The position numbers and the translations under genes are program-made. From Syntrophorhabdaceae bacterium (lineage in GTDB: Bacteria > Desulfobacterota > Syntrophorhabdia > Syntrophorhabdales > Syntrophorhabdaceae): 38,037 bases of DNA. Shown here in pieces: positions 19,810 through 37,145 of the stretch (positions are counted from its first letter, which is position 1; each line of letters begins with the position of its first letter). Below the pieces are notes generated by a model. It was not told the origin of the DNA. It was given only the letters and a program-made list of their open reading frames with translations, and made no database searches. The stretch lies in assembly GCA_036504895.1 (NCBI GenBank), contig DASXUJ010000107.1:1-38037 (forward strand), given 5' to 3'.

Positions 19810-20526
19810 ATGAACAGAACACGCCGTCACTCGCCGAACAGTACTATTTTATGTATGGTTATATGCCTTATTGCCGGCATCATGACCCTTCCCGCACTCG
19901 CGGATGACGCCGCTGAAAGCAGGCAGATAGTAGAGAAGGCGGTGATGACCTTCGATAATTTTTCGAAGGCACCGGAGATGGAGGGCTTTCGGCGCCTCAT
20001 GAAAGATGCGAGAGGCATCTTCATAGCGCCCCAGGTCCTCAAGGGCGCCTTTATTGTCGGAGCCGCCGGAGGCAGCGGTCTTTTTGTGGCAAGGGACGGC
20101 GGGGCAGGAAAATGGGCCGGCCCCGCGTTTTATACCATAGGCGAAGTAAGTTTTGGCCTTCAGGCGGGAGGCCAATCATCGGAAGTGATTTTTCTTGCCA
20201 TGTCCGAAAGGGGAGTTACTGCCCTTTTGAACAATTCGGTAAAACTCGGGGGCGACGTAGGCGTAGCTGCCGGACCGGTCGGAATCGGTGCAGCGGCTTC
20301 AACTGCTAATCTCAGCGCCGATATAATCAGTTTTTCCCGCTCAAAGGGACTTTTCGGAGGGATTTCTCTTGATGGGGCGGTGGTTGCAGTACGTGCCGGA
20401 TTGAATGAAGCTTACTACGGGGGAAAAAAATTAGGTCCCGTGGATATATTGATCCGGGGGACAGCATCGCCGACTCCCGGCGCCCGGATTCTTCTTGACG
20501 GAATCACGGAGGCCGCAAAGAAATAA
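19810..20526 (+). CDS. SYLF-domain (Ysc84-like) secreted lipid-binding protein
   Basis: The 238-residue protein has a signal peptide (hydrophobic core about 13-27, cleavage near PALA-DD). A SYLF domain follows, with the family features KDARGIFIAP and SGLFVARDG, the Gly-rich core, SRSKGLFGGISLDGAVV and NEAYYG. SYLF/Ysc84 domains bind phosphoinositides in eukaryotes; in bacteria they are periplasmic or outer-membrane proteins of unclear role. GGGAGGAG precedes the ATG. It is followed by the HpnL-like gene after about 160 bases on the same strand, so a lipid-related role next to hopanoid transport genes is plausible but unproven. Confidence 0.92.
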   Translation: MNRTRRHSPNSTILCMVICLIAGIMTLPALADDAAESRQIVEKAVMTFDNFSKAPEMEGFRRLMKDARGIFIAPQVLKGAFIVGAAGGSGLFVARDGGAGKWAGPAFYTIGEVSFGLQAGGQSSEVIFLAMSERGVTALLNNSVKLGGDVGVAAGPVGIGAAASTANLSADIISFSRSKGLFGGISLDGAVVAVRAGLNEAYYGGKKLGPVDILIRGTASPTPGARILLDGITEAAKK

Positions 20527-20688: not shown

Positions 20689-21702
20689 GTGAAGGTTTTT
20701 AATCTGATCATTCTGGCGGCAGGAGTACCCCTTCTGGCGCTCCTCGTGTACAGTGTGGGACCTCAGGCCCTCTGGCACGAATTCACTCTCCTGGGCTGGA
20801 AATTGGTGCCCCTCGTCCTTCTTGAGGGCGCCTCCAATCTTTTCAATACCCAGGGCTGGAGACATTGCCTTTCCGATTCTCATAAGCTGATCCCCTTCGG
20901 CAGAGTCCTTTGCCTCATGATGGCAGGCTCTTCCATTAATTACCTCACACCCACGGCAGGACTCGGAGGAGAGGTGGCCAAGGGACTCCTCCTTGCTGCC
21001 GGACGCGAAGGTCCATTAGCAGCTTCTGCCGTACTCCTCGACAAGCTTACATCGGCACTGGCGCAACTGATTTTTATTAATTGCGGTTACATAATCTTTT
21101 TAAACCAGGTTGAGATGCCGGCGGCCCTCCACTACTCCCTTATCTCGGCTACGGGTGTTTTGGGCGCAGGGATCGTGGGATTTCTGGTAGTACAGCGATA
21201 TGGGAAACTCGGCGCGCTGGTAAGGTGGGCCGTGCATCACCGTCTGGGCGGAGCGGCCCTTCGAAGAGTATCCGATTCGATGACAGAGGTGGATTACGAG
21301 CTTCGCCGGTTTCATCGCACCCGTTCAAGAGACCTTGCGCTTTCCGTCTTCTGGCACCTTATGGGAGTAACCTGGGGAATAATACCCCTCTTCTATTTTC
21401 TTATATTAACCCGGGACCTCGCTTCCTTACAGATATCCGGCGCCCTCGCCGTGCTCGGTAAGTGGTTTGATCTCGTATCCTTTGCCATTCCGACCGACAT
21501 AGGCATCCAGGAGGCAACAAGGGTACTGGCTTTTAAGATTATTGGTTTTCCCTCGGCCGTAGGACTGACTTATGCACTTACTCGCCGCCTCCAACAGGTT
21601 TTTTGGGCGGGAATAGGTCTCGCACTGTACGGCCTGGTCGTATCCACGCCCCATTTCCCTGTTCCCAGACCTGATGCTGAGGGTAAGGAGAGAATCCGAT
21701 GA
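20689..21702 (+). CDS. hpnL: HpnL-like integral membrane protein (UPF0104 / LPG synthase TM family)
   Basis: The 337-residue protein has about seven to eight hydrophobic segments and the family signatures YLTPTAGLGGEVAKG and KWFDLVSFAIPTDIGIQEA. It belongs to the flippase-like domain family shared with the membrane part of MprF; HpnL is the member found in hopanoid clusters, with an unproven lipid-flipping role. The GTG start at 20689 is preceded by GGAGG ten bases upstream; a GTG at 20605 is also in frame. It is the first of five closely spaced plus-strand genes leading to HpnN and HpnM. Confidence 0.85.
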   Translation: MKVFNLIILAAGVPLLALLVYSVGPQALWHEFTLLGWKLVPLVLLEGASNLFNTQGWRHCLSDSHKLIPFGRVLCLMMAGSSINYLTPTAGLGGEVAKGLLLAAGREGPLAASAVLLDKLTSALAQLIFINCGYIIFLNQVEMPAALHYSLISATGVLGAGIVGFLVVQRYGKLGALVRWAVHHRLGGAALRRVSDSMTEVDYELRRFHRTRSRDLALSVFWHLMGVTWGIIPLFYFLILTRDLASLQISGALAVLGKWFDLVSFAIPTDIGIQEATRVLAFKIIGFPSAVGLTYALTRRLQQVFWAGIGLALYGLVVSTPHFPVPRPDAEGKERIR

Positions 21703-21772
21703 GTTTTTGCTCCACCCACTCTGCCTGGAAGGTTTACAAAGGGAAGGCCGCACACAATTCCGGGAGGCATAT

Positions 21773-23143
21773 ATGAAGACTTCTTTCCGAGGTCTGAGAT
21801 ATGTTTCATTCGCCCTCATTGCGGTTTTGACCCTTGCCTGTGCAGATAGCGCGCAGGGAGGAGAAAAACGGGTTCTCAATCTGTCGCAGCTCATCGAGCT
21901 TGCAATTCGGTATAGTCCCGAGGTTAAGGAAACGTTGAGTGAGATTGAAGGTGCGAAGAGCGACCTCGCCCAGGCGGACGCCGCCTATTATCCACAGTTT
22001 GATACCCTCGCCCTCGCGGGTCCGATCAACAACACCAGGCGGCCTATGGTGGCAGGCACGCGTATTGTCGACCCTTCGCCAGACCTGAGCGTTGGAGTCT
22101 TCGGACGCATGGAGATGACCCTGACGCAACCGCTTTACACCTTCGGTAAAATCTCTAACCGGCGCGAAGCTGCCGCCCGAGGTGTGGCCGCAAGAGAGTC
22201 GAAGCTGCCCCATCGGAAGAATGAAATTGCCTTACGAATCAAACAGCTCTACTATGGCCTGGTTCTGGCAAAGGCGGGGACCGCTGCCGCGCGGGATGGT
22301 CTACAATATTTTGAGGAGGCCCGACGCCGCATGGATCGTCTGTTCAAATCAGGATCCGAAAACGTGACGGAGAGCGACCTGTACAGGATCGACGCCTATA
22401 GTGCCGACACTGTGCGCTCTCTTGCTGCGGCGGAAGAGGGAATGAAAACTGCCTATTTTGCGCTTAAATCAATGATCGGCTTTAGAGCTGAAGACGATTT
22501 TGACCCTGCAGATGAAATGCTGACCGTACGCAGTCAAGAGCTTCGGGGACTCGAAGATTACATCGGGAAGGCCCTTTCGGAGCGTCCTGAATTCAAGCAA
22601 TTGGAACACGCCATCGAGGCACAGAAATTCAGCGTCGAAGGCGCTATAAGCGATAGGTATCCTTCATTTTTCGCTGCCCTCGCGGGTTCGCTCGCGGGCG
22701 CGCCCGGTCGCGAGACATTTCACAATCCCTATATACCCGATCAGTTCAATCATGCGGTCGGGGGGATCGTGGGCGGCATGAAATGGCATTTCGATTTCGG
22801 AATATTAAAGGCCCGGGTAGAAAAGGAGAAAGCGGGTTACGAGAAGTTGCTGCACACCAAGGCTACCGCTAAAATGGGAATCCCCATCGAAGTGGCTCAA
22901 AGGTACCATGAGGTGAAGGAGTGGCGGGTGGCCCTCGATGCCTATGGCCGGGGCGTATCGTCTTCACGTAAATGGGTGATCGCAGCCCTTAGCGGTTTCG
23001 ATATGGGAGTGGGTGCTGCGGACGACCTGTTGAGGAGCATCGAGCGGTATGGTCAGAACCGGGGCAAATACCTCGAAGCTTTGTTTAATTACAACATATC
23101 CCTCGCCAGGCTCGAGTATGCGATGGGGGAACAAAGTTGGTGA
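21773..23143 (+). CDS. TolC-family outer-membrane efflux protein
   Basis: The 456-residue protein has an N-terminal signal (hydrophobic run to about residue 24; a Cys in LTLAC could be a weak lipobox). It then has the duplicated long-helix architecture of outer-membrane factors: LSQLIELAIRYSPEVKE, TLTQPLYTFGK, and LYYGLVLAKAGTAAARDG. TolC proteins form the outer-membrane and periplasmic duct of tripartite exporters. The start at 21773 has GGGAGG upstream, 70 bases after the HpnL gene. Its stop overlaps the start of hpnN, so the two are co-translated. No membrane-fusion protein gene is nearby. TolC genes are not standard members of hopanoid loci. Confidence 0.88.
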   Translation: MKTSFRGLRYVSFALIAVLTLACADSAQGGEKRVLNLSQLIELAIRYSPEVKETLSEIEGAKSDLAQADAAYYPQFDTLALAGPINNTRRPMVAGTRIVDPSPDLSVGVFGRMEMTLTQPLYTFGKISNRREAAARGVAARESKLPHRKNEIALRIKQLYYGLVLAKAGTAAARDGLQYFEEARRRMDRLFKSGSENVTESDLYRIDAYSADTVRSLAAAEEGMKTAYFALKSMIGFRAEDDFDPADEMLTVRSQELRGLEDYIGKALSERPEFKQLEHAIEAQKFSVEGAISDRYPSFFAALAGSLAGAPGRETFHNPYIPDQFNHAVGGIVGGMKWHFDFGILKARVEKEKAGYEKLLHTKATAKMGIPIEVAQRYHEVKEWRVALDAYGRGVSSSRKWVIAALSGFDMGVGAADDLLRSIERYGQNRGKYLEALFNYNISLARLEYAMGEQSW

Positions 23144-25923
23144 ACAACTTAAAATACCGTTTTGAAAATATGGGGCGGATTATTTTACGATTTCAGACCT
23201 CCCGTCCCGTCCTCACTCTCGCATGCGCCCTCATCCTTGCGGGCCTCGCCATCGTATATACCGCCGTCCGCCTCGAGTTCAAGACCAGCCAGCGTGCCCT
23301 GATATCCACGGACAACAGGTTGATGCAGTTATTGGACTTTGCCGAACTGTTTTCAGAACCTGACGGTTTTATCGTCGCCGTTGAAAACAAGAACGTCCAT
23401 CGATCCCTGGAGTTTGTCAATACCCTTACTTCCTGCCTTCAAAGAGACACGGAACATTTCGCCGAAGTCTTTTCCAGGGTGGACCCCCGCCTCTTCCGGC
23501 CCTGGGCTCTTCTCTACCTGACACCACGTGAGATCAATGAACTGCACGACAATCTCGCTGCACACGAGCCGTTTCTCAAGAAACTTTCTCGATCACCTGG
23601 TCTGGTGACCATCTTTGACGAAATCTCCCGGGAAATGAGATCAACCATGGTGGAGCACCTGTTCACGGGCTTTCTCGACTCCTCATCGGCAGAGGGGAAA
23701 ACCGGCGCACTGAACCTCGATTTCGTGGCGGCCATAATGAGAGAGATGAAGAAGAATCTGGAGGGGTCTTCAACCTTCAATTCCCCCTGGCGCTCCTTTT
23801 TTAAAGAAGGCACGGGGAATCAGGCGGAAGAAGGCTATTTCTGGACGGAAGGCAAGAAATATGTACTTATTTTGGTCGCGCCCAATTTGAAAAAAACGGG
23901 GGGTCCCAGTCAGGAGGAAGCACTGGTCTCGCTTCGCCGCAATCTACGGTCGATGAAAGAACTGTTCCCGGACGTGGAAGCGGGCGTTACCGGCCAAAAA
24001 GCGCTTGATGAGGATGAAAAATATCTCGCCTCCAAAGATATAGGCGTTGCAACTCTCGTCTCATTGGCAGGACTCGCCGTGCTGCTTCTTCTGTTCTGGA
24101 GGACGGTCCGGCGCCCCATGCTTCAGTTGACTACCCAGGCCGTAGGCCTTTCACTGACTTTCGGCCTTACCACTCTCTTTATCGGCCATCTTAACCTTTT
24201 GTCCATTACCTTCGCCCCCATGGTCCTCGGCCTCGGCATGGACTATGATATCCACTGGTTTTCCAGGTATAACGAGGAGCGCTTGCAACCGGGACGGACC
24301 ACGGGAGAGGCTCTCGCTGTAACTATGGAGAGTATGGGGCCCACCATACTGCTCGCTTCCCTGAGCACCTCCCTTGCCTTTCTGCCTCTTACGATCACCG
24401 GGTTCAAAGGACTTGCAGAACTGGGCGTCATTTGCGCCATCGGGCTCTTTGTATCATCAGTGACCACCCTGTGCCTTCTCCCGGCACTCATCATGCTTTT
24501 TGATAAACCTCCGGCTCGCGGCGCGCCTCGTTTCCCCACCCCGGCTGAGGCAAGACCCATGCTGCGGACCACAAAAAAGAAGGCCTTTGTGATTCTGGCC
24601 CTCACCGTCGCCGGCGCAGGCTTTTCCGCGTGGGGGGCCGGGAAGATTAAATTCGACCTCAATATGCTCCACCTCCAGTCAAAAACCGCTGAATCCGTAA
24701 TTTGGGAAACGAAGCTTATCAAAGACTCGAAATATCCCAGTATATATGGGGTCCTTTTTGCTCATTCGCTCACCGAGGTAGCCCGGAAGACGGAGACCCT
24801 GAAGAAACTTGATACGGTTTCGAATGTGAGGAGTGTACGGGATTTCCTCCCCCCCGATCAGGTAAGGACAATTCCTCTCGTGCGCAGGATGAAACCGATT
24901 CTCTCGGGCATCCCCAATCTCACCGCGAGTGAAGGTCCAATCGACGCGGAGGGGCTGAATAAGGGCCTTTCCCGCATCAGATTTATAATGGATGAAGGTC
25001 TTGGCAGAGAAGGGGATTTGACCGGCCGCCTTGAGGCACAGATGAAAGAGGTCCGCTCCCTGATTGACGGGATCACGCACGATCTTAAGACTATCGAAAC
25101 CAGGCTTGTGATACACCGCCTCAAGAAATTTGAATTAAAACTCTTGAATGATATGAACGAAAAGCTTTCTCTTATTCGCGAAAACACACATGCTCGTCCC
25201 ATGGAAGTTTCGGATCTGCCGGGGCCCGTGCTCAAACGTTTCGTCGGACCTGACGATATTTTTCTCATGCGGGTCTTCCCCTCATCCGATATCTGGGATC
25301 CGCGGTTTCTCGGAACATTTGTGCGGGATCTAAGAATAATAGATCCGGATGCGACAGGAGATCCCGTAACCCTTTATGTGTTTACCAGGGAATTCCGTGA
25401 TGCATCGATAAAGTCGGCTATCTACGCCCTCGTCCTTATCTTCTTGTTTCTTGCCCTTACATTAAGGAGTACGATTTTCGCCCTCGCCGCTATCTCGCCT
25501 CTCGTGCTCGGCGCCCTCCTCACCTTCGGTCTCATGCATATTTTTGGGGTCGATCTAAATCTCGCAAATACTATATTTCTGCCCCTTGTGATAGGGGCCG
25601 GAGTAGAATACGGAGTTATTATCATCGGCAGATGGCAGCAGAAAAAAAGCGGGCAAGAGCAGGCTCCCCTCCCCTTCAGCACGGGGATGGGTATAATTCT
25701 GGCCGGCTTATCGACCACCGTCGGTTTCGGAAGCCTTATGATTTCACGCCATCAGGGGATCTATAGCCTCGGCCTTCTCACCACCGTGGGAAGTGTAGTT
25801 GTGCTGGCCGTGGCGATTCTTTTTCTTCCCGCCTTACTCTCTTTTATGCCCCCTCGTCCAAAGGGCGACAGCAAAATTATCAAGGATAGAGATTTAAATC
25901 CAGACCACCGGGAGGAGTTATGA
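23137..25923 (+). CDS. hpnN: hopanoid-associated RND/MMPL transporter HpnN
   Basis: The 928-residue protein is an RND-superfamily transporter with two similar halves: a membrane helix near residue 30, a periplasmic domain (60-300), a helix bundle (about 305-450), a second periplasmic domain (490-740) and a second bundle (750-905). Hallmarks are GLGMDYDIHWFSRYNEE in the first half and VIGAGVEYGVIIIGRW in the second, placing proton-relay acids in helix 4 of each half. HpnN moves hopanoids from the inner to the outer membrane in Rhodopseudomonas and Burkholderia. The start is TTG 23137 or GTG 23140, both overlapping the tolC stop. Its TGA overlaps hpnM by four bases. Confidence 0.93.
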   Translation: MVNNLKYRFENMGRIILRFQTSRPVLTLACALILAGLAIVYTAVRLEFKTSQRALISTDNRLMQLLDFAELFSEPDGFIVAVENKNVHRSLEFVNTLTSCLQRDTEHFAEVFSRVDPRLFRPWALLYLTPREINELHDNLAAHEPFLKKLSRSPGLVTIFDEISREMRSTMVEHLFTGFLDSSSAEGKTGALNLDFVAAIMREMKKNLEGSSTFNSPWRSFFKEGTGNQAEEGYFWTEGKKYVLILVAPNLKKTGGPSQEEALVSLRRNLRSMKELFPDVEAGVTGQKALDEDEKYLASKDIGVATLVSLAGLAVLLLLFWRTVRRPMLQLTTQAVGLSLTFGLTTLFIGHLNLLSITFAPMVLGLGMDYDIHWFSRYNEERLQPGRTTGEALAVTMESMGPTILLASLSTSLAFLPLTITGFKGLAELGVICAIGLFVSSVTTLCLLPALIMLFDKPPARGAPRFPTPAEARPMLRTTKKKAFVILALTVAGAGFSAWGAGKIKFDLNMLHLQSKTAESVIWETKLIKDSKYPSIYGVLFAHSLTEVARKTETLKKLDTVSNVRSVRDFLPPDQVRTIPLVRRMKPILSGIPNLTASEGPIDAEGLNKGLSRIRFIMDEGLGREGDLTGRLEAQMKEVRSLIDGITHDLKTIETRLVIHRLKKFELKLLNDMNEKLSLIRENTHARPMEVSDLPGPVLKRFVGPDDIFLMRVFPSSDIWDPRFLGTFVRDLRIIDPDATGDPVTLYVFTREFRDASIKSAIYALVLIFLFLALTLRSTIFALAAISPLVLGALLTFGLMHIFGVDLNLANTIFLPLVIGAGVEYGVIIIGRWQQKKSGQEQAPLPFSTGMGIILAGLSTTVGFGSLMISRHQGIYSLGLLTTVGSVVVLAVAILFLPALLSFMPPRPKGDSKIIKDRDLNPDHREEL

Positions 25924-26543
25924 AACGACCGGCCATAATCCTCATCGTAATAGTACTTGCCCTGTATGCGTATACCTGTCACGCAGCCGCAGAAGCACGG
26001 AAGGCCACCGATTTTGTTCAGGCCATGTTAACAGAGATTATTGCGATTCAAAACGATCCGCGACTTCAAAATCCGGAGTCAAAAAATATGAGAAAAGATC
26101 TCGTCCGGAAGATTATCCTCAGGAGCTTTGATTTCAATACGATGGCGAAAGATGCCCTTGGGCCGCAACAATGGAACGGGATGACGAAGAGCCAACAGAC
26201 CGAATTCAAGTCGGTCTTCCAGGACCTTTTTGTCGAATCTTATTTGCGCCTGGTCCTCGATTTCCTGAAGAAGGAGAAAATAGAGTACGGGGAGGAGCGA
26301 CACTCTCAGGGCAAAAGGTTGGTGAAGACCATAATGCACCGGCAGGAGGATCGCATTCCGGTGGATTACTTCCTCATTATTTCCGGAGATCGGTGGACCA
26401 TAACCGATGTGACGATCGAGGGCGTGAGCATAATAGAAAACTACCGCAAGTCCTTTTCCCGCATCATCAGGCAGGACTCCCTAAACGGGCTCCTGAGGAA
26501 GATGCGTCTTCAGCAGAAGGCGGCACAGGGAAATGGCACTTAG
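25920..26543 (+). CDS. hpnM: periplasmic MlaC/Ttg2D-like protein HpnM
   Basis: The 207-residue protein has a signal peptide (MKRPAIILIVIVLALYAYTC, cleavage near AHA-type sites at about 23). It then has an MlaC fold: LVRKIILRSFDFNTMAKDALG, FQDLFVESYLRLVLDFL, and RIPVDYFLIISGDRWTITDV. MlaC-type proteins carry lipids across the periplasm, and HpnM is the form in hopanoid loci. The ATG overlaps the hpnN stop (ATGA) with GGGAGGAG just upstream. It lies next to its expected partner transporter. The hydrophobic lipid pocket is inferred from the family only. Confidence 0.92.
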   Translation: MKRPAIILIVIVLALYAYTCHAAAEARKATDFVQAMLTEIIAIQNDPRLQNPESKNMRKDLVRKIILRSFDFNTMAKDALGPQQWNGMTKSQQTEFKSVFQDLFVESYLRLVLDFLKKEKIEYGEERHSQGKRLVKTIMHRQEDRIPVDYFLIISGDRWTITDVTIEGVSIIENYRKSFSRIIRQDSLNGLLRKMRLQQKAAQGNGT

Positions 26544-26558
26544 AGAATGGAGGCGGCT

Positions 26559-27770
26559 ATGGAAAAAACAGCATTGATATGGGCGGAAGACGGAAGAGGT
26601 CTGCAGAAGGTATATGGGATAGGGGCGGCAAAAAGACTTATTCTCCTCGCACGCCTGATTGGATTCGACAAAATATTTGTAGCAGAACACGGCTCTGATC
26701 TTTTGCCCGTCCTTTCGGAATTCACCGGAATCGAGGGATTGGCCTATATACACGGTGAATCGTGGCAATCCATACTCGGGAAGCTCCCCTTTCATGAAGA
26801 CGAGTATGTGCTGCTCCTTAACGCCGGCCTTGTCGTCGATCGATGGTCTCTGAACCGGCTCTTACAGGCCGGCCGGGAGCGCGAGAGCGTTCTCTTAAGA
26901 AAAGGTGGCTCAGTAAAGGAAGCGGCCTTTTTCGTAAAGGCATCCCGCCTCTATTCCCTGATGTCTGTGTCGCAGGGTTGGCATGAAGTCTGCGCAGGAC
27001 TTGCGGCCGATGCCATTCATGTCGAAACCGACCGTAGATTACCTCTTCTTCTCGATCCTGACCGGGCAAATATACGAGAAGCGGAGGCCGCCCTTAGTGT
27101 CGCAGCCGGCGAGGCAACATGGGAAAGGGACAGCCTTCTCTACCGTCATGCAAGCCGCCATATCTCCCGGCTCATCAGTCCGTGGATTGCAAGAACAGGT
27201 ATAACGGCAAACATGGTGACCCTGTTCTGTACTCTAATAGGACTTGCAGGGGCCTTCGTTCTCACAATTGGGGGTTATCTATCCCAAATAACAGGGTCTT
27301 TGCTCTTTCTTTTTTCCACGATCATTGATCTGGTCGACGGCGAAGTCGCCCGTCTCAAACTGCAGGAGAGTAATTTCGGCCATTATTTCGATATAATTTG
27401 CGACAATATTGTGCATGTCGCGGTGTTTGTGGGGATTGCATTCGGCCTGTATCAGGAAACGGGCAATGGGCTTTTTCTGCGCCTCCTATGGTTCCTTCTC
27501 GGAGGTCTCGGCATTTGTGCGCTCATACTCAACCGCATACTTTCCGAGAACAGGACGGGTTTGCAGCCATCCCCTTCTGCAGTCCTCCTCGAAAGCCTAT
27601 TCAATAACAGGGATTTTGCTTATGTCATGACTGCTTTAGCCCTGTTCCACCGCCTTGACTGGTTTTTCGTAGCCAGTGCAATCGGCGCATATCTTTTGGC
27701 TCTTGTCCTTTGGGCGATCCGATTCTTCGTCTCACGTCCCGCCGGCCACAGGGGCGTCGCGGGCAGCTAA
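26559..27770 (+). CDS. CDP-alcohol phosphatidyltransferase with degenerate nucleotidyltransferase-like N-domain
   Basis: The 403-residue protein carries the complete CDP-alcohol phosphatidyltransferase motif, D260-G-x2-A-R265 ... G274-x3-D278-x3-D282, in a C-terminal bundle of about six membrane helices (215-395). The motif binds the CDP-lipid and metal. The first ~190 residues look like a sugar/inositol-phosphate nucleotidyltransferase (RLILLARLIGFDKIFV, LLLNAGLVVD) but lack the Gly-rich loop and metal aspartates. This recalls bifunctional IPCT/DIPPS enzymes with a decayed first domain. The ATG at 26559 has GGAGG five bases upstream. It follows hpnM by 15 bases, so it probably makes a phospholipid or a phosphate-linked head group associated with this locus. 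The substrate is unknown. Confidence 0.85.
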   Translation: MEKTALIWAEDGRGLQKVYGIGAAKRLILLARLIGFDKIFVAEHGSDLLPVLSEFTGIEGLAYIHGESWQSILGKLPFHEDEYVLLLNAGLVVDRWSLNRLLQAGRERESVLLRKGGSVKEAAFFVKASRLYSLMSVSQGWHEVCAGLAADAIHVETDRRLPLLLDPDRANIREAEAALSVAAGEATWERDSLLYRHASRHISRLISPWIARTGITANMVTLFCTLIGLAGAFVLTIGGYLSQITGSLLFLFSTIIDLVDGEVARLKLQESNFGHYFDIICDNIVHVAVFVGIAFGLYQETGNGLFLRLLWFLLGGLGICALILNRILSENRTGLQPSPSAVLLESLFNNRDFAYVMTALALFHRLDWFFVASAIGAYLLALVLWAIRFFVSRPAGHRGVAGS

Positions 27771-28993: not shown

Positions 28994-29728
28994 ATGAGGC
29001 TCCTTCTGCTTTTTGCGTTTCCCCGGGAGGTGCGGGAGGTACTGCGCTCGGCAGGCCGGAGGGAACGGATCGACGGCTTTCCCTTCACGGCATTTCGCAT
29101 CCTCCACCCCTCGCACAATCTTATAGCCGCCGATACGGGGTTGGGAGTAGAGAATTCAGCACGAGTGTGCCGTCATCTGGTCCGGCTGGAAAGGCCCGAT
29201 GCGGTGCTGTCTCTCGGATACTGTGGCGCCTTGTCGCCCGAGGCGTCCGTTGGAGATTTGATTTGGGGTACCGATGTCTGCCTCATCGACGGACAAACAA
29301 TTAAAACCCTTACGCTTCGTGAGGATCGAGGCCTCCTGGAAAAGCTCTCCCTTAGTCTTCCCCTCAGGGCAGGAACTATACTTACCATGCGGTATTGGAT
29401 GAAGAAGGGGGAAATTGCAAAGTTTGTCACCCCTTCAATGAGCCTGCCCGTATGTGACATGGAGACATTTGCCACGGCCTGGCTTTGCTCTCAGGAGAAC
29501 CTGCCTTTTTACGCGCTGAGGGCGGTAAGCGATGGGGCCGGTACCGATCTCGCCTTCGACCCATGGAAGGTGTGCGACAATAAAGGAACCTATCGGATTG
29601 CACGGGCGCTGCGGTTTTTTCTCACTCGTCCGCGCCTCTTGAGCCATGCGATGGAACTGCGCCGCAATTCAAGAATGGCGTCTCGTAGGCTGGATATGGC
29701 AGTGAACTCCCTTCTTCAGATACTGTAG
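28994..29728 (+). CDS. hpnG: hopanoid-associated nucleoside phosphorylase HpnG
   Basis: The 244-residue protein is a PNP/MTA-phosphorylase-fold enzyme: LLLFAFPREVREVL at the N-terminus, AADTGLGVENSA, VLSLGYCGAL, and VCDMETFATAWL with the nucleobase-binding Met-Glu pair. HpnG removes adenine from adenosylhopane to give a ribosyl or phosphoribosyl hopane, acting after HpnH. It is transcribed on the plus strand, away from hpnI and toward hpnH. It has a weak ribosome site. The start is the first in-frame ATG matching the conserved N-terminal strand. Confidence 0.9.
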   Translation: MRLLLLFAFPREVREVLRSAGRRERIDGFPFTAFRILHPSHNLIAADTGLGVENSARVCRHLVRLERPDAVLSLGYCGALSPEASVGDLIWGTDVCLIDGQTIKTLTLREDRGLLEKLSLSLPLRAGTILTMRYWMKKGEIAKFVTPSMSLPVCDMETFATAWLCSQENLPFYALRAVSDGAGTDLAFDPWKVCDNKGTYRIARALRFFLTRPRLLSHAMELRRNSRMASRRLDMAVNSLLQIL

Positions 29729-30983: not shown

Positions 30984-31802
30984 TCAACGCGTCATACCCG
31001 GGGCTTCTCTTCCGTCGATGAACCGGAGGGCGTCGTCGAGGGTATCCAGCCGTAGATGGGTATTCTTGCAAGGCCCTTCAGGCCTCTCGTTGGGGATGGC
31101 GAGGACGTGTATCTTCTCCGCCACGTCTTTGATTCCGCTCAATAGATCTCTCTCGCAGGCAACGGCAAGGATAAGGGAGGGCCTGTATTGCCTGATCGCC
31201 TTCCTCGCCTCTTCTCCCCCTGCCACAGTCACGATCTGGGCGGCCTTTCCGTTGACCCTCTCTGCCACCTGCCGGCGGGCCTCTTTTTTCAGGCACCTGG
31301 GCAGGAGGATGAGGAGGGGGTCGGTCTTCACTTCACGGGCATGGCTTTTTACGAGCAGGTTATGGGCCTTGATAAAGGAGTTGCCTATCCTGTCCCTGTG
31401 GATGCCCAGCCTTCTCCCGAGCCAAATGCTTTTCGGCAGAAGGGCAAGGAGGAGCTTTTCGTCTATTTTATAGGGGATAAAGGACCGTTTGAACCTCAGC
31501 AGGAGCACGGCCTCGATGACGGCGAAAAGAAGGGAGGCGGCAATAAGCATAATAAGGCACGACCCAATAAGGTATGCAAGAAGGGGGCTCGCCTGATCGA
31601 GGCGGGGTTTGGCGAGATACCATCCCAGGGCAAGGAAGAAAATCAGGATGAAGAGGGAGGATGCGGCGAGGATGAGGAAGGTACTTATCCTCTCGTCGAC
31701 TCCCTTCTCTCCGTGGTCCGTTCCCCCGTCCCAGTCGAACCATTCGTCTCCGAGCTTTCTATCTCCGGTCCCTGTGCGGGTATAGGTCTCTTGCTCATTC
31801 AT
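30984..31802 (-). CDS. DUF116-family membrane protein within the hopanoid operon
   Basis: The ~272-residue protein has an acidic N-terminus, two membrane helices (about 43-70 and 75-105), then a cytoplasmic domain of DUF116 type: LLPRCLKKE, RPSLILAVACERDLLSGIKD, and IPNERPEGPCKN. DUF116 proteins usually also carry a Cys-rich block (CxxCGxC type) between the first and second of these motifs. Here that block seems absent or replaced (ERVNGKAAQ). The start at 31802 has GGAG upstream and overlaps the hpnA stop by 8 bases. It is followed by hpnH after 11 bases. Its function is unknown; its location suggests a role in hopanoid side-chain formation or its localisation. Confidence 0.82.
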   Translation of the reverse strand: MNEQETYTRTGTGDRKLGDEWFDWDGGTDHGEKGVDERISTFLILAASSLFILIFFLALGWYLAKPRLDQASPLLAYLIGSCLIMLIAASLLFAVIEAVLLLRFKRSFIPYKIDEKLLLALLPKSIWLGRRLGIHRDRIGNSFIKAHNLLVKSHAREVKTDPLLILLPRCLKKEARRQVAERVNGKAAQIVTVAGGEEARKAIRQYRPSLILAVACERDLLSGIKDVAEKIHVLAIPNERPEGPCKNTHLRLDTLDDALRFIDGREAPGMTR

Positions 31803-32811
31803 GACATTCTCCGGACAGACGAGGCACATAACCTTTCTCCCTGTACCAGGATATTGCCTTCCATGCCGCCGATTCGATGGAATTCTGCGCCATCCCCAGT
31901 TTTAGTACCGCCTTTGAGGTGTCGAAGAACATGTAATGGCGGGCCATGCGTACGCCGTCCACCGGGATCCGAGGCTCCTTTCCTCCACAAACTTTTGAGT
32001 ATGCCCGGTCCGCATAGGCTAAACAAAGCACGGGCCCGTAAGGAAGTCTCCACCGGGGCGGCTTCATTCCGGTCAGACGGGCCAGTAGGTGGAGAAACTG
32101 CTTAAGGGTCAGGTTCTCATTCCCCAATATATAGCTCTCACCCACGACCCCGGATTCTGCTGCCAATACATGCCCCTCCGCCACGTCCCCCACATCAACG
32201 AGATTAAGCCCTGTATTCACGTAGGCCGGCATCTTGCCATTAAGAAAATCGACTATCGTCTTACCCGTGGGCGTAGGTTTTCTGTCCATAGCGCCTATAG
32301 GGAATGTGGGATTGACGATTACCGCGGGCAGACCGACGCCGATACACCTGCGGACTTCCTTTTCCGCCAGAAACTTAGATATCTTATAATGTCCCGAGAG
32401 GTCCTGGAATCTTGCCCTGTTTTCCTCATTCCCCGGTTTACCGTCCGGAGTAACACGAAGTATTCCGACCGTGCTCGTATACACGACCCTTGTAACGCTC
32501 CTCTCCAGGGCCGCCTTCATCACATTTGCCGTCCCCCCGACATTTATTTCATACATCCTCTCAGGGTCCGGCACCCATAGCCGGTAATCGGCAGCCACAT
32601 GGAACACCCGGTCGCAGCCTCTCATTGCCTTCAGCACTGATTCATAGTCCCGGACGTCGCCGGCCACCGGCTTTGCGCCGCACCTTGAAATGAAACCGCT
32701 GTCCGATGCGTTTCTTACGAGGGCGAGAACTTCGAAACCCCTCTCGCTGAGTGCTTTTGCTACATGAAATCCGATGAAGCCGGAAGCGCCCGTTACCAGG
32801 ACCCTTGTCAT
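31795..32811 (-). CDS. hpnA: hopanoid-associated NAD-dependent epimerase/dehydratase HpnA
   Basis: The 338-residue protein is an extended short-chain dehydrogenase: NAD-binding TGASGFIG at 7-14, VFHVAADYRLW, and the catalytic YKISK (Tyr142, Lys146), with YTSTVGIL supplying the Ser/Thr. HpnA-type sugar epimerases occur in most hopanoid clusters, though their substrate is not settled. The ATG overlaps the shc stop by four bases (ATGA), and the stop overlaps the DUF116 start. These couplings make it part of the hpnJ-K-shc-A-DUF116-H unit. Confidence 0.93.
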   Translation of the reverse strand: MTRVLVTGASGFIGFHVAKALSERGFEVLALVRNASDSGFISRCGAKPVAGDVRDYESVLKAMRGCDRVFHVAADYRLWVPDPERMYEINVGGTANVMKAALERSVTRVVYTSTVGILRVTPDGKPGNEENRARFQDLSGHYKISKFLAEKEVRRCIGVGLPAVIVNPTFPIGAMDRKPTPTGKTIVDFLNGKMPAYVNTGLNLVDVGDVAEGHVLAAESGVVGESYILGNENLTLKQFLHLLARLTGMKPPRWRLPYGPVLCLAYADRAYSKVCGGKEPRIPVDGVRMARHYMFFDTSKAVLKLGMAQNSIESAAWKAISWYREKGYVPRLSGECHE

Positions 32812-34793
32812 GATGCCATCTCCCGTTCATCCTGTTTGTCTATATCGACTGTCTGGCGGAGAAATTTCCCAAGGGCCATTAAAGGGAAGCAGTTCCGATA
32901 GTTGTGATATTTGATCATAAAATATTTGGGAAAGCCGGTGGCGGTAAATTCTTCCTCTTCCCACGTACCGTGCGAGGACTGTTCGCGGAGGAGAAAATTT
33001 ATCGCCCTGATCGCTTCCCTTGACGCACCTTCTCCTGCGGCCATCAAACCCATGGCGCCCCACGCGGTCTGGGAAGGCGTGCTCCTCCCGCGAATTCTCA
33101 TATGTGGGTTTGTATAAGATTCGCAACTCTCCCCCCATCCGCCGTCGGGGTTCTGGTATCTCTTGAGCGCGGCGACCGCTTTTCGCACATACGGCTTTGT
33201 CATGTCTTCACCTATGGAGCGCAGCCCTACGAGTACCGACCAGGTGCCGTACACGTAATTGACGCCCCACCTGCCCCACCAGAGACCGTCTTTCTCCTGC
33301 GTCTTCTTCAGGAACTTGAACGCTTCTTTTACCGCTTTGCTATTTATAGGATATTGAATGCATCCGAGCATCTCAAGCACTCTCCCCGTAATATCGGGCG
33401 TACTGGGGTCGATCATTGCTTCAAGGTCGCCAAAAGGGATCTGGTTCAGCAGATCCATATCGTTATCCACGTCGAAGGCGCCCCATCCTCCGTCTCGCCC
33501 CTGCATACCCAGCACCCATCCGACCGCTTTTCTGAAATTCTGGGGCTGCAGAAAACCCTGATGACTGTGTCTGCTGAGGAGCATGAGCACTACGGCGGTA
33601 TCGTCTATGTCGGGATACCAGGTATTCACAAATTCGAATGCCCAGCCGCCGGGCTCGAGGTGAGGTCTCTTTACGCTCCAATCGCCCTTCTTCAGTATCT
33701 GCTTGCCTGCCAGCCAGTCACAGGCGGAGACCATTGAAACATGGGTCTCTCTCAGTCCGGAGCACGAAAGCGCAAGGGCCGTCAGGGCCGTGTCCCACAC
33801 GGGCGAGATACATGACTGGAGCAAGAGTTCATCCTCTCTCTCGATTGCAAACCGTTCCAGGGCTTCGAATCCTTTTTGTACAGGCTGGCTGGAAACAGGA
33901 GAACCCTCGATAAGCAAGGCCAAAATCGAATTTACCATGGCAGGTTGTATTCCTCCCCAATCACCCGCCTCTTCCTGATGCTCCCGGATCCACCGGAGGG
34001 CCTCTTCCAGGCCTTTTTTTCTGAAATATCTAAGCTGGCTATCTTCGGTTGCTTTGATCATTTTATCGAGGTGCATGAAAAACCGCTTCCACGAGAGCAG
34101 ACGTTCACGCGGCTTTTTCGACCTCTCCGCATGGTCCCGGCTGAAAAGTTCCCTCACTCCCCGGCTCTCCGGAATAACTTTGACAGGCCTCTTGTCGAGC
34201 ACAATTGAGAGCGGCACGAAGGTGGCTCTCGCCCAGCTGGAGAATCGATAGATACTGAAGGGAAACCAGGGAAGGAAAAGCATAATTTCCACGGGAACGG
34301 AAGGGATTGCCCTCCAATCGTATTGGCCGAAAAGGGCGAGAAATATTTTGGTGAATACCCTTGTTTCCGACAGGCCGCCATTCGCGAGAATGAACCTTCC
34401 GGCTTGTTGGAGACGATAATCTTCTGCGCCGTACCCGGCCAGCTTAAGGGCAAAGTAGGCTTCCACGGTCGTGCTGAGATCTCCTTTGCCGCCGGTATAT
34501 ATGGCCCATGTTCCGTCGGACCTTTGATGTTTTAGTATATGACGAGCCATTTTTGCCTGCTTCTCGTCGACTTCCACGCCCGCAAAAGCGAGGAGCATGA
34601 GATACTCCGCGGTGATGGTCACATTTGACTCCAGTTGAAAACACCAAAATCCGTCCGGGTGCTGATTGTGAACGAAAAAATTATGGCTCGCCCTGATGGC
34701 GTCCTGAACACGTTCGGCGAGATCGCGGCCGTACTCGTGCTTCATCCCCTGTTCGAACAGATTCGGCTCCAGTCGAAGAGTGTCAATGGCCAT
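32808..34793 (-). CDS. shc: squalene-hopene cyclase
   Basis: The ~661-residue protein cyclises squalene to hopene (and hopanol). The protonating DXDD motif is DIDD at 395-398 (WYPDIDDTAVVL). Several QW repeats are present (for example DGTWAIY, GRDGGWGAF, DGLWWGRWG, PDGGWGES, SHGTWEEEEF). This is full length for the bacterial family. ATG 34793 is the most likely start by overlap with hpnK, but TTG 34841 and an internal GTG are possible and no strong ribosome site marks any of them. It acts at the inner membrane. It overlaps hpnK upstream and hpnA downstream. Confidence 0.96.
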   Translation of the reverse strand: MAIDTLRLEPNLFEQGMKHEYGRDLAERVQDAIRASHNFFVHNQHPDGFWCFQLESNVTITAEYLMLLAFAGVEVDEKQAKMARHILKHQRSDGTWAIYTGGKGDLSTTVEAYFALKLAGYGAEDYRLQQAGRFILANGGLSETRVFTKIFLALFGQYDWRAIPSVPVEIMLFLPWFPFSIYRFSSWARATFVPLSIVLDKRPVKVIPESRGVRELFSRDHAERSKKPRERLLSWKRFFMHLDKMIKATEDSQLRYFRKKGLEEALRWIREHQEEAGDWGGIQPAMVNSILALLIEGSPVSSQPVQKGFEALERFAIEREDELLLQSCISPVWDTALTALALSCSGLRETHVSMVSACDWLAGKQILKKGDWSVKRPHLEPGGWAFEFVNTWYPDIDDTAVVLMLLSRHSHQGFLQPQNFRKAVGWVLGMQGRDGGWGAFDVDNDMDLLNQIPFGDLEAMIDPSTPDITGRVLEMLGCIQYPINSKAVKEAFKFLKKTQEKDGLWWGRWGVNYVYGTWSVLVGLRSIGEDMTKPYVRKAVAALKRYQNPDGGWGESCESYTNPHMRIRGRSTPSQTAWGAMGLMAAGEGASREAIRAINFLLREQSSHGTWEEEEFTATGFPKYFMIKYHNYRNCFPLMALGKFLRQTVDIDKQDEREMAS

Positions 34794-35694
34794 AAGCGAA
34801 TGAGTCGGCTGCCACACCGGTATGGGGCGCCGGAAATTCAAGGTCTTTAAAACCTACCGGTTGTATCCCTAATGCGGTAATAGAGTCCCCTACCCGTTTC
34901 GAAATGACCGCTTCCTTTTCTCTTTGGCCTGCCGCCGTACCTGAATCGGGATGGAGGTAAATCTCATGGATCCCATTTTTTATATAAGGTAGAACAGCCA
35001 GGAGGTATCTTTCGTCTATTCTACCCGTCCCGGAAGTCCCGTACACGGTATTCGCCACATGAAGGCCAAGGCCATAGGCTGCCTTCATATTCCTGCGGTT
35101 GAGGAGCTCGAAAACCAGACGTAAAAGGAAAGCCTTTGCGTCCAGAGTGGGCCCATGGAGGCGAAGCAGAAAAGGCCAGGGCTCCCGTGGGATTCGTATC
35201 CAGGCTATCCTGCGGCGAGCTGCTTCCCGGGAGATAATCGTAAAAAGAAGGGGATGGATGTGGAGATGATGGTGGCAATCCACATGGGAAGGATGGATAC
35301 CCGCATCTTCAACCTTATCAAACTGTGCCCTCACTTCAGCCTCGATTTGTTCCCCGATCCTTTCTTTCCGGCTCCAATACATTACGCCCGCCCGAAACGG
35401 GCTTGGGTCGAAGCGGCCCTCTTTATCGACCAGGTCGGGAATTCGGACGGGAGAAAGAACCGGGCGCCCCTGGGAAAGCACGACGTGGAGACCCACCGAA
35501 AGGCCGGGATGCCGTGCGGCCACATCGACCGCCCCATGGAAAGCCGCACCTCCAGCCATGACACTTGCGGCGGTCAGACAACCATGGTCTTTCGCGGCGG
35601 CCACTGCATTATTGACTGAAGGAGAACTGCCGAAATCATCAGCACCAATGACGACATATTTTTTCCTACTGCGGGCGCCCCTTTCCATGGTCAT
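34783..35694 (-). CDS. hpnK: hopanoid glycoside deacetylase HpnK (ChbG/YdjC family)
   Basis: The 303-residue protein has the YdjC/ChbG deacetylase fold: VIGADDFGSSPSVN at the N-terminus (metal Asp pair), SVGLHVVLSQG, HVDCHHHLHIHP (metal His), and EIYLHPD near the C-terminus. HpnK removes the acetyl group from N-acetylglucosaminyl bacteriohopanetetrol made by HpnI. Its ATG overlaps the hpnJ stop by four bases. It precedes shc with a short overlap. The start is supported by that coupling. Confidence 0.93.
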   Translation of the reverse strand: MTMERGARSRKKYVVIGADDFGSSPSVNNAVAAAKDHGCLTAASVMAGGAAFHGAVDVAARHPGLSVGLHVVLSQGRPVLSPVRIPDLVDKEGRFDPSPFRAGVMYWSRKERIGEQIEAEVRAQFDKVEDAGIHPSHVDCHHHLHIHPLLFTIISREAARRRIAWIRIPREPWPFLLRLHGPTLDAKAFLLRLVFELLNRRNMKAAYGLGLHVANTVYGTSGTGRIDERYLLAVLPYIKNGIHEIYLHPDSGTAAGQREKEAVISKRVGDSITALGIQPVGFKDLEFPAPHTGVAADSFAYGH

Positions 35695-37103
35695 GCCGTC
35701 GCTCCCTTACGCTTTGCCATGAATGAAAAGAACTCTCTCCCCTCCCTGATCCGCCTGCAGAATTCCTCCCTGTCAACCAGCATCTCTTTAAGAATTCTGA
35801 GGATGGGGGCAGGTCTCAAATAGAAGCGGCGGTAGAAAATTTCGACGGCCGCAAATATCTCGTCTTTTGATAACCAAGGATATGAGAGCACGGAGTTCTG
35901 AATCCCTTCCCGCACGAGAGCTCCCCCTTTGAGCCATCCCTGGCGCTTCGCCTCTTCATACAGCACGGTTCCCGGATAAGGAGCGGCGAGAGAAACCTGG
36001 ATGCTGTAGGGATCGATATCCCGGGCAAACCGAATCGTCTCTTCCATGGTCTCCCGCGTCTCTCCCGGCAGACCGAGTATGAATGTACCGTGGATGAGTA
36101 CACCGACTTCAGAAGCGGCCCGCGTAAATTTCCGTGCCCCTTCAAGGCGTACTCCTTTCCTGATGTTGTTCAGTACGTTCTGATTGCCCGACTCGAATCC
36201 CACCACGAGCAGCCTCAACCCATTATCTTTAAGCACCTCAAGCGTCCGCTTCGGCACGTCGGCCCTGGCATTGCACGACCATGTGATGCCGAGGGAACCC
36301 ATTCCGCGGGCGATCTCCTCCAGTTGCGGATGATCGGTGAAAGTATCGTCATCGAAAAAAAACTCCTTCACCTGAGGAAAGAGTGTTTTGGCGAGTTTCA
36401 TCTCTTCCAGGATATTTCCCGGGCTCCTGACCCGGTACCTGCCGCCCCCTATGGTCTGGGGCCAGAGACAATAAGTGCATCGGCCCCGGCAACCTCGACC
36501 TCCGTAGAGAGATACATAAGGGTGCTTCAGATAACCGATGTAGTAATCCTCCACACGCAGGTCCCTTGAATATACATCCGCCGCAAAAGCAAGACGGTCA
36601 AGGTCGCTAATCGGCGGTCTGGGCTCGGTTCTGCGAACAGCGCCGTTGAAGCGGAAGGCGATCCCTTTTACCTGATTAAGCGGTCGTCCCTCGGAAATTT
36701 CAACAACCGTATCGTCAAACTCGCCCAAAGCGACAAAATCAACAGCCGGCGACGACCGGAGGCTTTCTTCCGGACAGACGGTCACGTGAGAGCCGACCAT
36801 CCCTATCATCAGGCGCGGATAAGCTTCCTTGAGGGCGCCTGCCAACGCCGCATCGTTTTCGAAAGTGGGGGTGCCCGTATGGATAATCACCAGTTCGTAG
36901 CCTGCCGCCTGACGGAGGGTTTCTTCCGCAGTAATACCCTGGGCGGAGGCGTCCAGCAGTCTCGCCCCCTTAATCATGCCCGCGGGATAAGCGAGCCACG
37001 TGGGATACCAGAATGAACGGACTTCCCGGCATGCCTGATAACGTGAGCCCGCACTACCGTCGAAGCCCTTGAACGAGGGTGGGTTGAGAAGTAATGTCTC
37101 CAT
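35691..37103 (-). CDS. hpnJ: hopanoid B12-binding-type radical SAM enzyme HpnJ
   Basis: The 470-residue protein has a B12-binding-like N-terminal domain (about 1-140) and a radical SAM domain with C205-x3-C209-x2-C212 (CRGRCTYC). The expected GFESGNQNVL and GTFILGLPGET motifs follow, then a C-terminal tail. HpnJ contracts or converts the sugar of glucosaminyl bacteriohopanetetrol to the cyclitol ether. It is the first gene of the minus-strand hopanoid operon. ATG 37103 is preferred to an in-frame start at 37145 because it begins the conserved strand METLLLNPPS. A TTGACA lies about 37 bases upstream. Confidence 0.93.
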   Translation of the reverse strand: METLLLNPPSFKGFDGSAGSRYQACREVRSFWYPTWLAYPAGMIKGARLLDASAQGITAEETLRQAAGYELVIIHTGTPTFENDAALAGALKEAYPRLMIGMVGSHVTVCPEESLRSSPAVDFVALGEFDDTVVEISEGRPLNQVKGIAFRFNGAVRRTEPRPPISDLDRLAFAADVYSRDLRVEDYYIGYLKHPYVSLYGGRGCRGRCTYCLWPQTIGGGRYRVRSPGNILEEMKLAKTLFPQVKEFFFDDDTFTDHPQLEEIARGMGSLGITWSCNARADVPKRTLEVLKDNGLRLLVVGFESGNQNVLNNIRKGVRLEGARKFTRAASEVGVLIHGTFILGLPGETRETMEETIRFARDIDPYSIQVSLAAPYPGTVLYEEAKRQGWLKGGALVREGIQNSVLSYPWLSKDEIFAAVEIFYRRFYLRPAPILRILKEMLVDREEFCRRIREGREFFSFMAKRKGATA

Positions 37104-37139
37104 ACCGGCTATTCTAAAAATGTGCAGCACACCTAAGAA

Positions 37140-37145
37140 TGTCAA
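37140..37145 (-). promoter_or_regulatory. TTGACA box upstream of hpnJ
   Basis: A perfect -35 hexamer TTGACA reads toward hpnJ, ending about 37 bases before its ATG. The best -10-like hexamer, TAGAAT, is at 23 bases, longer than usual. It is therefore a weak promoter candidate for the hopanoid operon. Confidence 0.25.

Follow-up and report, generated by a model that had tools for sequence, protein, structure and literature searches.

What does a TolC-like gene do among genes for the transport of hopanoids, which are sterol-like lipids? RND transporters usually pair with an outer membrane factor (OMF) in pumps, and TolC, an OMF, is a trimer. In a 38,037-nucleotide contig of a Syntrophorhabdaceae bacterium (hereafter the window), a TolC-like gene lies directly upstream of hpnN in a hopanoid cluster. 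The original prediction read this arrangement as a possible export module, in which either a continuous path crosses the envelope or the TolC has been adapted for transferring lipids.

The gene cluster and its products

The predicted gene order and close coupling held up: hpnL, tolC, hpnN, hpnM and a CDP-alcohol transferase gene follow one another on the plus strand from 20689 to 27770, with overlaps of 4 nt at tolC/hpnN and at hpnN/hpnM. The genes for HpnI, HpnG, HpnH, HpnA, squalene-hopene cyclase, HpnK and HpnJ follow this set, to 37145.

20689..21702, plus strand: HpnL-like membrane protein (LPG_synthase_TM); Pfam PF03706, 81.6 bits; GTG start with GGAGG
21773..23143, plus strand: TolC-like OMF of the carrier-linked subfamily; OEP, PF02321, 131.8 bits against 22
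22664..22807, plus strand: TolC residues 298-345, second beta-hairpin, signature ..AGAPGR..NPYIPDQFNH..DFGI
22958..23062, plus strand: TolC residues 396-430, second helical tip, RKW...GFDMGVG, where the model turns from helix 344-410 into helix 416-451
23140..25923, plus strand: HpnN, HAE-3 RND hopanoid transporter; TIGR03480, 507 bits, E 8e-152; PDB 5KHN
25920..26543, plus strand: HpnM, MlaC-type periplasmic lipid carrier; Pfam MlaC PF05494, 134.9 bits against a cut-off of 26
26547 (or 26559)-27770, plus strand: CDP-alcohol phosphatidyltransferase family protein; PF01066
27807..28946, minus strand: HpnI glycosyltransferase; TIGR03472, 299.5 bits against a cut-off of 310
28994..29728, plus strand: HpnG-like phosphorylase; TIGR03468, 81 bits
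29965..31071, minus strand: HpnH radical SAM enzyme; TIGR03470, 355 bits, above cut-off
31795..32811, minus strand: HpnA epimerase; TIGR03466, 430.6 bits, above cut-off
32808..34841, minus strand: squalene-hopene cyclase; TIGR01507, 778.6 bits, above cut-off
34783-35694, minus strand: HpnK; TIGR03473, 214.7 bits against a cut-off of 232.6
35691-37145, minus strand: HpnJ; TIGR03471, 681 bits, above cut-off

The tolC-like reading frame is open from 21674, but its start was placed at ATG 21773, which is preceded by GGGAGG and agrees with relatives, so that tolC is clear of hpnL. The start of hpnN is probably GTG 23140, within a GTGA common to the tolC stop, and an ATGA is common to the end of hpnN and the start of hpnM. 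The PF01066 match of the CDP-alcohol transferase is confined to residues 220-336, and its N-terminal half has no assignment. HpnL scored 97.7 bits with TIGR03476 (cut-off 195.65), HpnM 70 bits with TIGR03481 (trusted cut-off 160.1), and HpnN fell short of the trusted cut-off of 751.85 for TIGR03480, its best-hit model. Because these scores lie below the trusted cut-offs, the three names were assigned from the best hit, the fold and the genomic context.

The predicted model of HpnN had PDB 5KHN as its first-ranked fold match (sequence match 1.8e-61). The solved hopanoid transporters 5KHN and 6WU0 fitted it best and the AcrB and MexB types more poorly. HpnN did not group with AcrB-type RND subunits, since HpnN and MmpL were the best matches and the MexB type came at rank 49 with a TM of 0.39; by fold and by its site within a hopanoid cluster, it belongs with the hopanoid transporters. 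It also fell below the BstA equivalog cut-off (300 bits against 1400). Hopanoid transporters of the 5KHN class have been reported as dimeric (PMC8277102). We considered and rejected a longer helical insert of HpnN as a replacement for a membrane-fusion protein (MFP); the insert measures ~110 residues in TolC-linked and unlinked HpnNs alike, and is longer only within one Syntrophobacteraceae group.

An AlphaFold2 model of the TolC-like protein (pLDDT 87.5) had TolC, OprN, OprM and CusC as its best PDB matches, with TM values of 0.70-0.78 to TolC, OprN, OprM and VceC, and showed the two beta-hairpins and paired long helices of the TolC fold. The two OEP repeats place it in the OMF/OEP family, while its score with the type I secretion TolC model TIGR01844 was 81 bits, below the cut-off of 225.15. 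A sequence search returned no solved close relative at E 0.001. The fold is that of an ordinary OMF and carries no lipid-specific trait. A cysteine in its signal region raised the idea of a lipoprotein, which we discarded, as the relatives that were inspected have none there.

Conservation and genomic settings of the TolC-like subfamily

We then counted TolC neighbors across hpnN loci. TolC adjoined HpnN in 42 out of 128 distinct HpnN loci, directly upstream and on the same strand in 39 of them, and in 33 of the TolC-HpnN loci no more than 300 bp separated HpnM from HpnN. These loci came from several Desulfobacterota orders and included Syntrophorhabdales, Syntrophobacteraceae, Desulfobacterales, Desulfarculales and Desulfobacca records; in several relatives the genes overlap as well, and in relatives as in the window the TolC-like gene lies inside a hopanoid cluster with hpnL and hpnN. 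The linkage is not due to chance, and because it recurs across several orders, it is no peculiarity of this genome. Among 395 genomes of the phylum, a subfamily profile had matches in 47; HpnN is present in 40 of these 47, against 62 of the 395 overall (Fisher p 1e-31, with counts inflated by shared ancestry).

The hpn-linked TolCs form one clade with support of 100/100, apart from a small outgroup of 24 other OMFs that included 16 other TolC-type proteins of this genome. The window protein falls in one clade with mla-linked TolCs too, and the subfamily also occurs in mlaE-mlaF-mlaD-TolC-mlaC operons of Desulfobacterota, Methylomirabilota and one Proteobacteria record, where TolC occupies the slot held by mlaA in the operons of other genomes (loci L334 and L335). 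Hpn-linked and mla-linked members share a signature that is absent from the other OMFs compared: mean column identity over residues 298-345 was 0.66 in both groups and 0.30 in other OMFs, and over residues 396-430 it was 0.67 in hpn-linked, 0.60 in mla-linked and 0.39 in other OMFs. Three hopanoid clusters (L356; L357, with the order hpnL-tolC-hpnM, from Desulfoferrobacter suflitae DRH4; and L358) keep TolC and hpnM together with HpnN far off or on another contig. These loci and the mla operons indicate that the MlaC-type carrier is the constant neighbor; HpnN is not, and an MFP never takes that place. About a dozen genomes, all from one family (f9), carry a subfamily TolC that has no link to HpnN or to MlaC.

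The absence of a fusion-protein gene from the module, claimed in the original prediction, was confirmed: none was found on the 38-kb contig, and the 19 PF16576 matches of the genome lie on other contigs. Neither here nor in related operons is there the MFP gene that marks a tripartite RND efflux pump (HAE-1). By coordinate comparison, 14 of the 17 OMF genes of this genome sit in MFP operons and the hpn-linked TolC is not among them, while several MFPs (for example on contigs C6 and C19) have no OMF alongside. Among the subfamily members seen, none adjoined an MFP, their settings being lipid trafficking or unlinked only. Nine MFPs were found within 9 kb of TolC-HpnN pairs, none in the operon and all at least 4.9 kb away; eight stood beside another RND or OMF gene, and the ninth belongs to a locus (L192) that is truncated at its end.

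The operon in the window lacks MlaE, MlaF and MlaD and is not an Mla pathway; the same genome has a separate mlaE-F-D-C-A operon on contig C5. We rejected the idea that MlaA is always missing where the subfamily occurs, since this genome has it. No MlaA was found in 29 of the 47 TolC-positive genomes; all 22 HpnN-positive, TolC-negative genomes have one, and the Methylomirabilota with mla-TolC operons also carry it. Because MlaA coexists with TolC here and in many other genomes, any replacement of MlaA by TolC is at best partial.

A candidate role in lipid transfer, and its alternatives

Since the subfamily accompanies a lipid-carrier gene and never an MFP, the TolC-like protein probably takes part in lipid transfer and not in drug efflux. 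We infer, with confidence a little above even, that this distinct OMF subfamily serves MlaC/HpnM lipid carriers as their partner in the outer membrane and is not the exit duct of RND drug pumps. HpnN, by analogy with its Rhodopseudomonas palustris counterpart, would lift hopanoids from the inner membrane to its periplasmic domain. HpnM, with its MlaC fold, would ferry the lipid through the periplasm and dock on the TolC-like trimer, which, in the role of MlaA, would pass it into the outer membrane. In relatives, the ABC/MCE engine MlaEFD would serve the OMF-MlaC pair in place of HpnN. A more tentative extension is that TolC trimers of the subfamily accept lipids at the outer membrane from MlaC-fold carriers in general, an efflux channel having become the equivalent of MlaA. 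One carrier-OMF pair would then work with proton-driven HpnN for hopanoids and with ATP-driven MlaEFD for phospholipids; the single copy in some genomes may serve both.

Genomic context thus sides with the lipid-adapted TolC of the original prediction and not with its continuous path. A duct in which HpnN docks onto TolC directly or via HpnM and pumps hopanoids through it would fit the usual RND-OMF pairing and the gene overlaps here and in several relatives. However, the HpnN model is closest to 5KHN and 6WU0, transporters reported as dimers against a trimeric TolC, and a poor match to AcrB and MexB types; no adaptor was found, the helical insert of TolC-linked HpnNs does not exceed that of unlinked ones in length, and TolC follows the carrier, staying with HpnM where HpnN is not in the operon. 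We regard such a duct as very improbable. It is unlikely, too, that the protein is an ordinary OMF for an unlinked MFP and pump, placed in lipid operons through co-regulation of envelope genes without any joint machine. The standard OMF model, the MFPs without an adjacent OMF and the unlinked members of family f9 speak for this view, but no member of the clade stands next to an MFP, the MFPs near TolC-HpnN pairs keep their distance and all but one have an RND or OMF neighbor of their own, and linkage to MlaC-type genes is seen again in a second phylum and with a second engine.

The direction and nature of the cargo might also differ. The OMF-carrier pair could move lipids in reverse, or move another lipid, as in the phospholipid retrieval proposed for Mla, and share only regulation with hopanoid synthesis. 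The subfamily does occur in mlaEFD-mlaC operons, and many hold Mla to be retrograde (PMC10665443), but in the window and its relatives TolC shares the hopanoid cluster with hpnL and hpnN, and R. palustris HpnN mutants have no hopanoids in the outer membrane, which indicates export (PMC4337730). We consider this explanation improbable.

Comparison with known systems and implications

The HpnN proteins of R. palustris and Burkholderia (HAE-3 RND; PDB 5KHN, 6WU0) share family, fold and hopanoid cluster with the window protein, which, unlike them, scores below the HpnN equivalog cut-off. They are described as functioning without co-transcribed periplasmic or outer-membrane partners (PMC6394551), whereas the operon in the window includes both an OMF and a carrier. 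The same paper has a passage on AmeABCD of Castellaniella defragrans, where an HAE-3 RND and outer-membrane and periplasmic partners form one cassette, as here, but the partners are not named there as TolC or MlaC and the substrates are monoterpenes. BstABC sterol transport in Methylococcus capsulatus likewise combines an HpnN-like RND with a periplasmic carrier; that carrier is PhnD-like, BstC is of TPR type, and the system has neither TolC nor MlaC (PMC10942540). Synteny of mlaEFD with tolC has already been published for Negativicutes, where the mlaEFD-tolC-tamB operon of Veillonella parvula puts TolC beside a lipid-transport engine (PMC10665443). That likeness is one of gene context, and the Negativicutes operon has no MlaC, a long MlaD bridging the envelope instead (PMC10665443), while here MlaC/HpnM is the constant neighbor. 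E. coli Mla (MlaA-OmpC, MlaC, MlaFEDB) also joins an MlaC-type carrier to an outer-membrane partner and an energized inner-membrane complex, and the gene slot of mlaA corresponds to that of TolC in relatives; E. coli uses the MlaA lipoprotein and an ABC/MCE complex where the window has an OMF and an RND, HpnN. The tripartite HAE-1 pumps AcrAB-TolC and MexAB-OprM have the OMF fold in common with the window system, which has an HAE-3 RND and no MFP.

A literature search for MlaC together with an outer membrane efflux protein and Geobacter returned nothing, and we found no published outer-membrane acceptor for hopanoids after HpnN. A dedicated OMF that accompanies an MlaC-type carrier, with or without HpnN, is a candidate for that acceptor and opens the last step to experiment. 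If the proposal is correct, it would provide an outer-membrane partner for the Mla systems of genomes where MlaA was not found, and would extend the functions of TolC-type channels to lipid delivery.

The tolC-like gene in the hopanoid operon

The contig, taken entire from a 4.35-Mb draft genome, carries the five-gene module of the original prediction, followed by the rest of the hopanoid cluster:

20689-27770, plus strand: hpnL, tolC-like gene, hpnN, hpnM and CDP-alcohol transferase gene, in that order
downstream of 27770, up to 37145: remainder of the hopanoid cluster

As predicted, the tolC-like gene overlaps the hpnN start; the 4 nt GTGA are common to both, and ATGA is common to hpnN and hpnM. 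The hpnL-tolC gap is 70 nt: tolC was taken to begin at ATG 21773, which agrees with the relatives, instead of at the earliest start in the reading frame. HpnL, HpnN and HpnM each score under their TIGRFAM trusted cut-offs, and their names therefore denote best match, fold and context. The closest relatives of this HpnN are in Syntrophorhabdales and other deltaproteobacterial MAGs.

Several neighbors were also observed. Directly upstream of hpnL lies a gene for a secreted SYLF/Ysc84-domain protein (19810-20526), which was not found in related neighborhoods. For the N-terminal half of the CDP-alcohol transferase (26547-27770), about 180 residues, Pfam gave no match. In its layout the protein resembles two-domain cytidylyltransferase/transferase enzymes, and it might synthesize a hopanoid or lipid head group. 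A DUF116 gene (30984-31829) overlaps hpnH and hpnA and recurs in a few related hopanoid clusters.

Distribution of the TolC subfamily

We gathered HpnN neighborhoods from the phylum and from named genomes, giving 128 distinct loci. The count of TolC neighbors bore out a conserved linkage: TolC lay within 700 bp of HpnN in 42 loci, directly upstream on the same strand in 39, across Syntrophorhabdales, Syntrophobacteraceae, Desulfobacterales, Desulfarculales and Desulfobacca records. At L088/L151, a complete MFP-RND-TolC pump operon with its own TolC sits just upstream of hpnL-tolC-hpnN-hpnM, placing two unlike TolCs within ~3 kb.

In a tree against 24 other outer-membrane factors (OMFs), including the 16 others of this genome, all hpn-linked TolCs fell on one side of a 100/100 branch. 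Fourteen of the 17 OMF genes in this genome sit in membrane-fusion protein (MFP) operons by coordinate comparison; the exceptions are this TolC, an isolated OMF gene, and a third at the edge of a contig, preceded by an RND fragment. The AlphaFold2 model of this TolC is a canonical OMF, and motifs in the second beta-hairpin and second helical tip are common to hpn- and mla-linked members and absent from other OMFs.

Searching 395 genomes from the phylum with a profile of the subfamily (A2) gave matches in 47. HpnN was present in 40 of these 47 versus 62 of 395 overall (Fisher p 1e-31, shared ancestry ignored). Our count of its 53 matches puts 23 next to HpnN and 13 next to MlaC or MlaD; the remaining 17, of which 12 are from genome family f9, have neither kind of neighbor. 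None has an MFP beside it. Where HpnN lacked an adjacent TolC, the subfamily occurred elsewhere in 15 of 27 genomes checked. These belonged almost entirely to Desulfobacterota and Methylomirabilota; the Nitrospinota/Nitrospirota set had none. Three of the genomes (L356, L357 of Desulfoferrobacter suflitae, and L358) pair TolC with HpnM inside the hopanoid cluster, without an intervening HpnN. In f9 (L300-L304, L320-L326), the subfamily TolC is a solitary gene, oriented divergently from one sugar-epimerase-like gene and one for an ABC ATPase; the same genomes have HpnN-HpnM and mlaE-F-D-C operons without an outer-membrane component.

Relation to MlaA

The mla-linked members show the Pfam-checked order mlaE-mlaF-mlaD-TolC-mlaC, with four further such operons from named genomes (three Methylomirabilota, one Proteobacteria record). 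Elsewhere the order is mlaE-F-D-mlaA-mlaC (L334, L335) or, in this genome and L331, mlaE-F-D-C-A; TolC thus occupies the MlaA gene slot. Of the 47 TolC-positive genomes, 29 lack MlaA; all 22 HpnN-positive, TolC-negative genomes have it. TolC may have replaced MlaA in some lineages, though not generally, because much of the pattern comes from f9 and both proteins coexist in this genome and in Methylomirabilota.

The TolC tree has mla-linked members diverging close to the base of the main group. Most hpn-linked forms occupy nested positions, though some of them also lie deep. The HpnMs cluster together in the MlaC tree. With moderate support, the MlaCs of TolC-containing operons have as their neighbors those from f9 and f53 operons, in which both MlaA and TolC are missing.

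Proposed lipid transfer and the inner-membrane partner

Precedents include mlaEFD-tolC-tamB in Negativicutes (PMC10665443), BstABC, in which other carriers accompany an HpnN-like RND (PMC10942540), and the HAE-3 transporter AmeD with outer-membrane and periplasmic partners (PMC6394551). Our search of largely open-access literature found no published description of TolC sharing an operon with HpnN or MlaC. BstABC-like cassettes (HpnN/BstA-like RND, PhnD-like BstB, TPR-type BstC) were seen in Desulfobacterota at L142:6884-8507 and L147:11206-12848, with L123 and L129 apparently similar, some inside hopanoid clusters, and may carry sterol or hopanoid; against NCBIfam cut-offs of 350 bits, L147 BstB scores 378 and BstC 279.

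The original prediction offered a continuous HpnN-TolC path or a TolC adapted to lipid transfer. A directly coupled duct is unlikely, because the window HpnN models as an R. palustris-type hopanoid transporter, a class reported as dimeric (PMC8277102). Nothing takes the place of the MFP; the helical insert of TolC-linked HpnNs does not exceed that of unlinked ones in length. Genomic context favors the lipid-adapted TolC. HpnN, assigned to export on the basis of R. palustris (PMC4337730), would pass hopanoid to HpnM, HpnM would pass lipid to the TolC-like trimer, and the trimer would deliver it to the outer membrane, conceivably by a lateral route between protomers. The invariant neighbor of this OMF subfamily is an MlaC-type carrier. 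The inner-membrane engine is not fixed; it can be HpnN, MlaEFD or one whose gene lies at another site.
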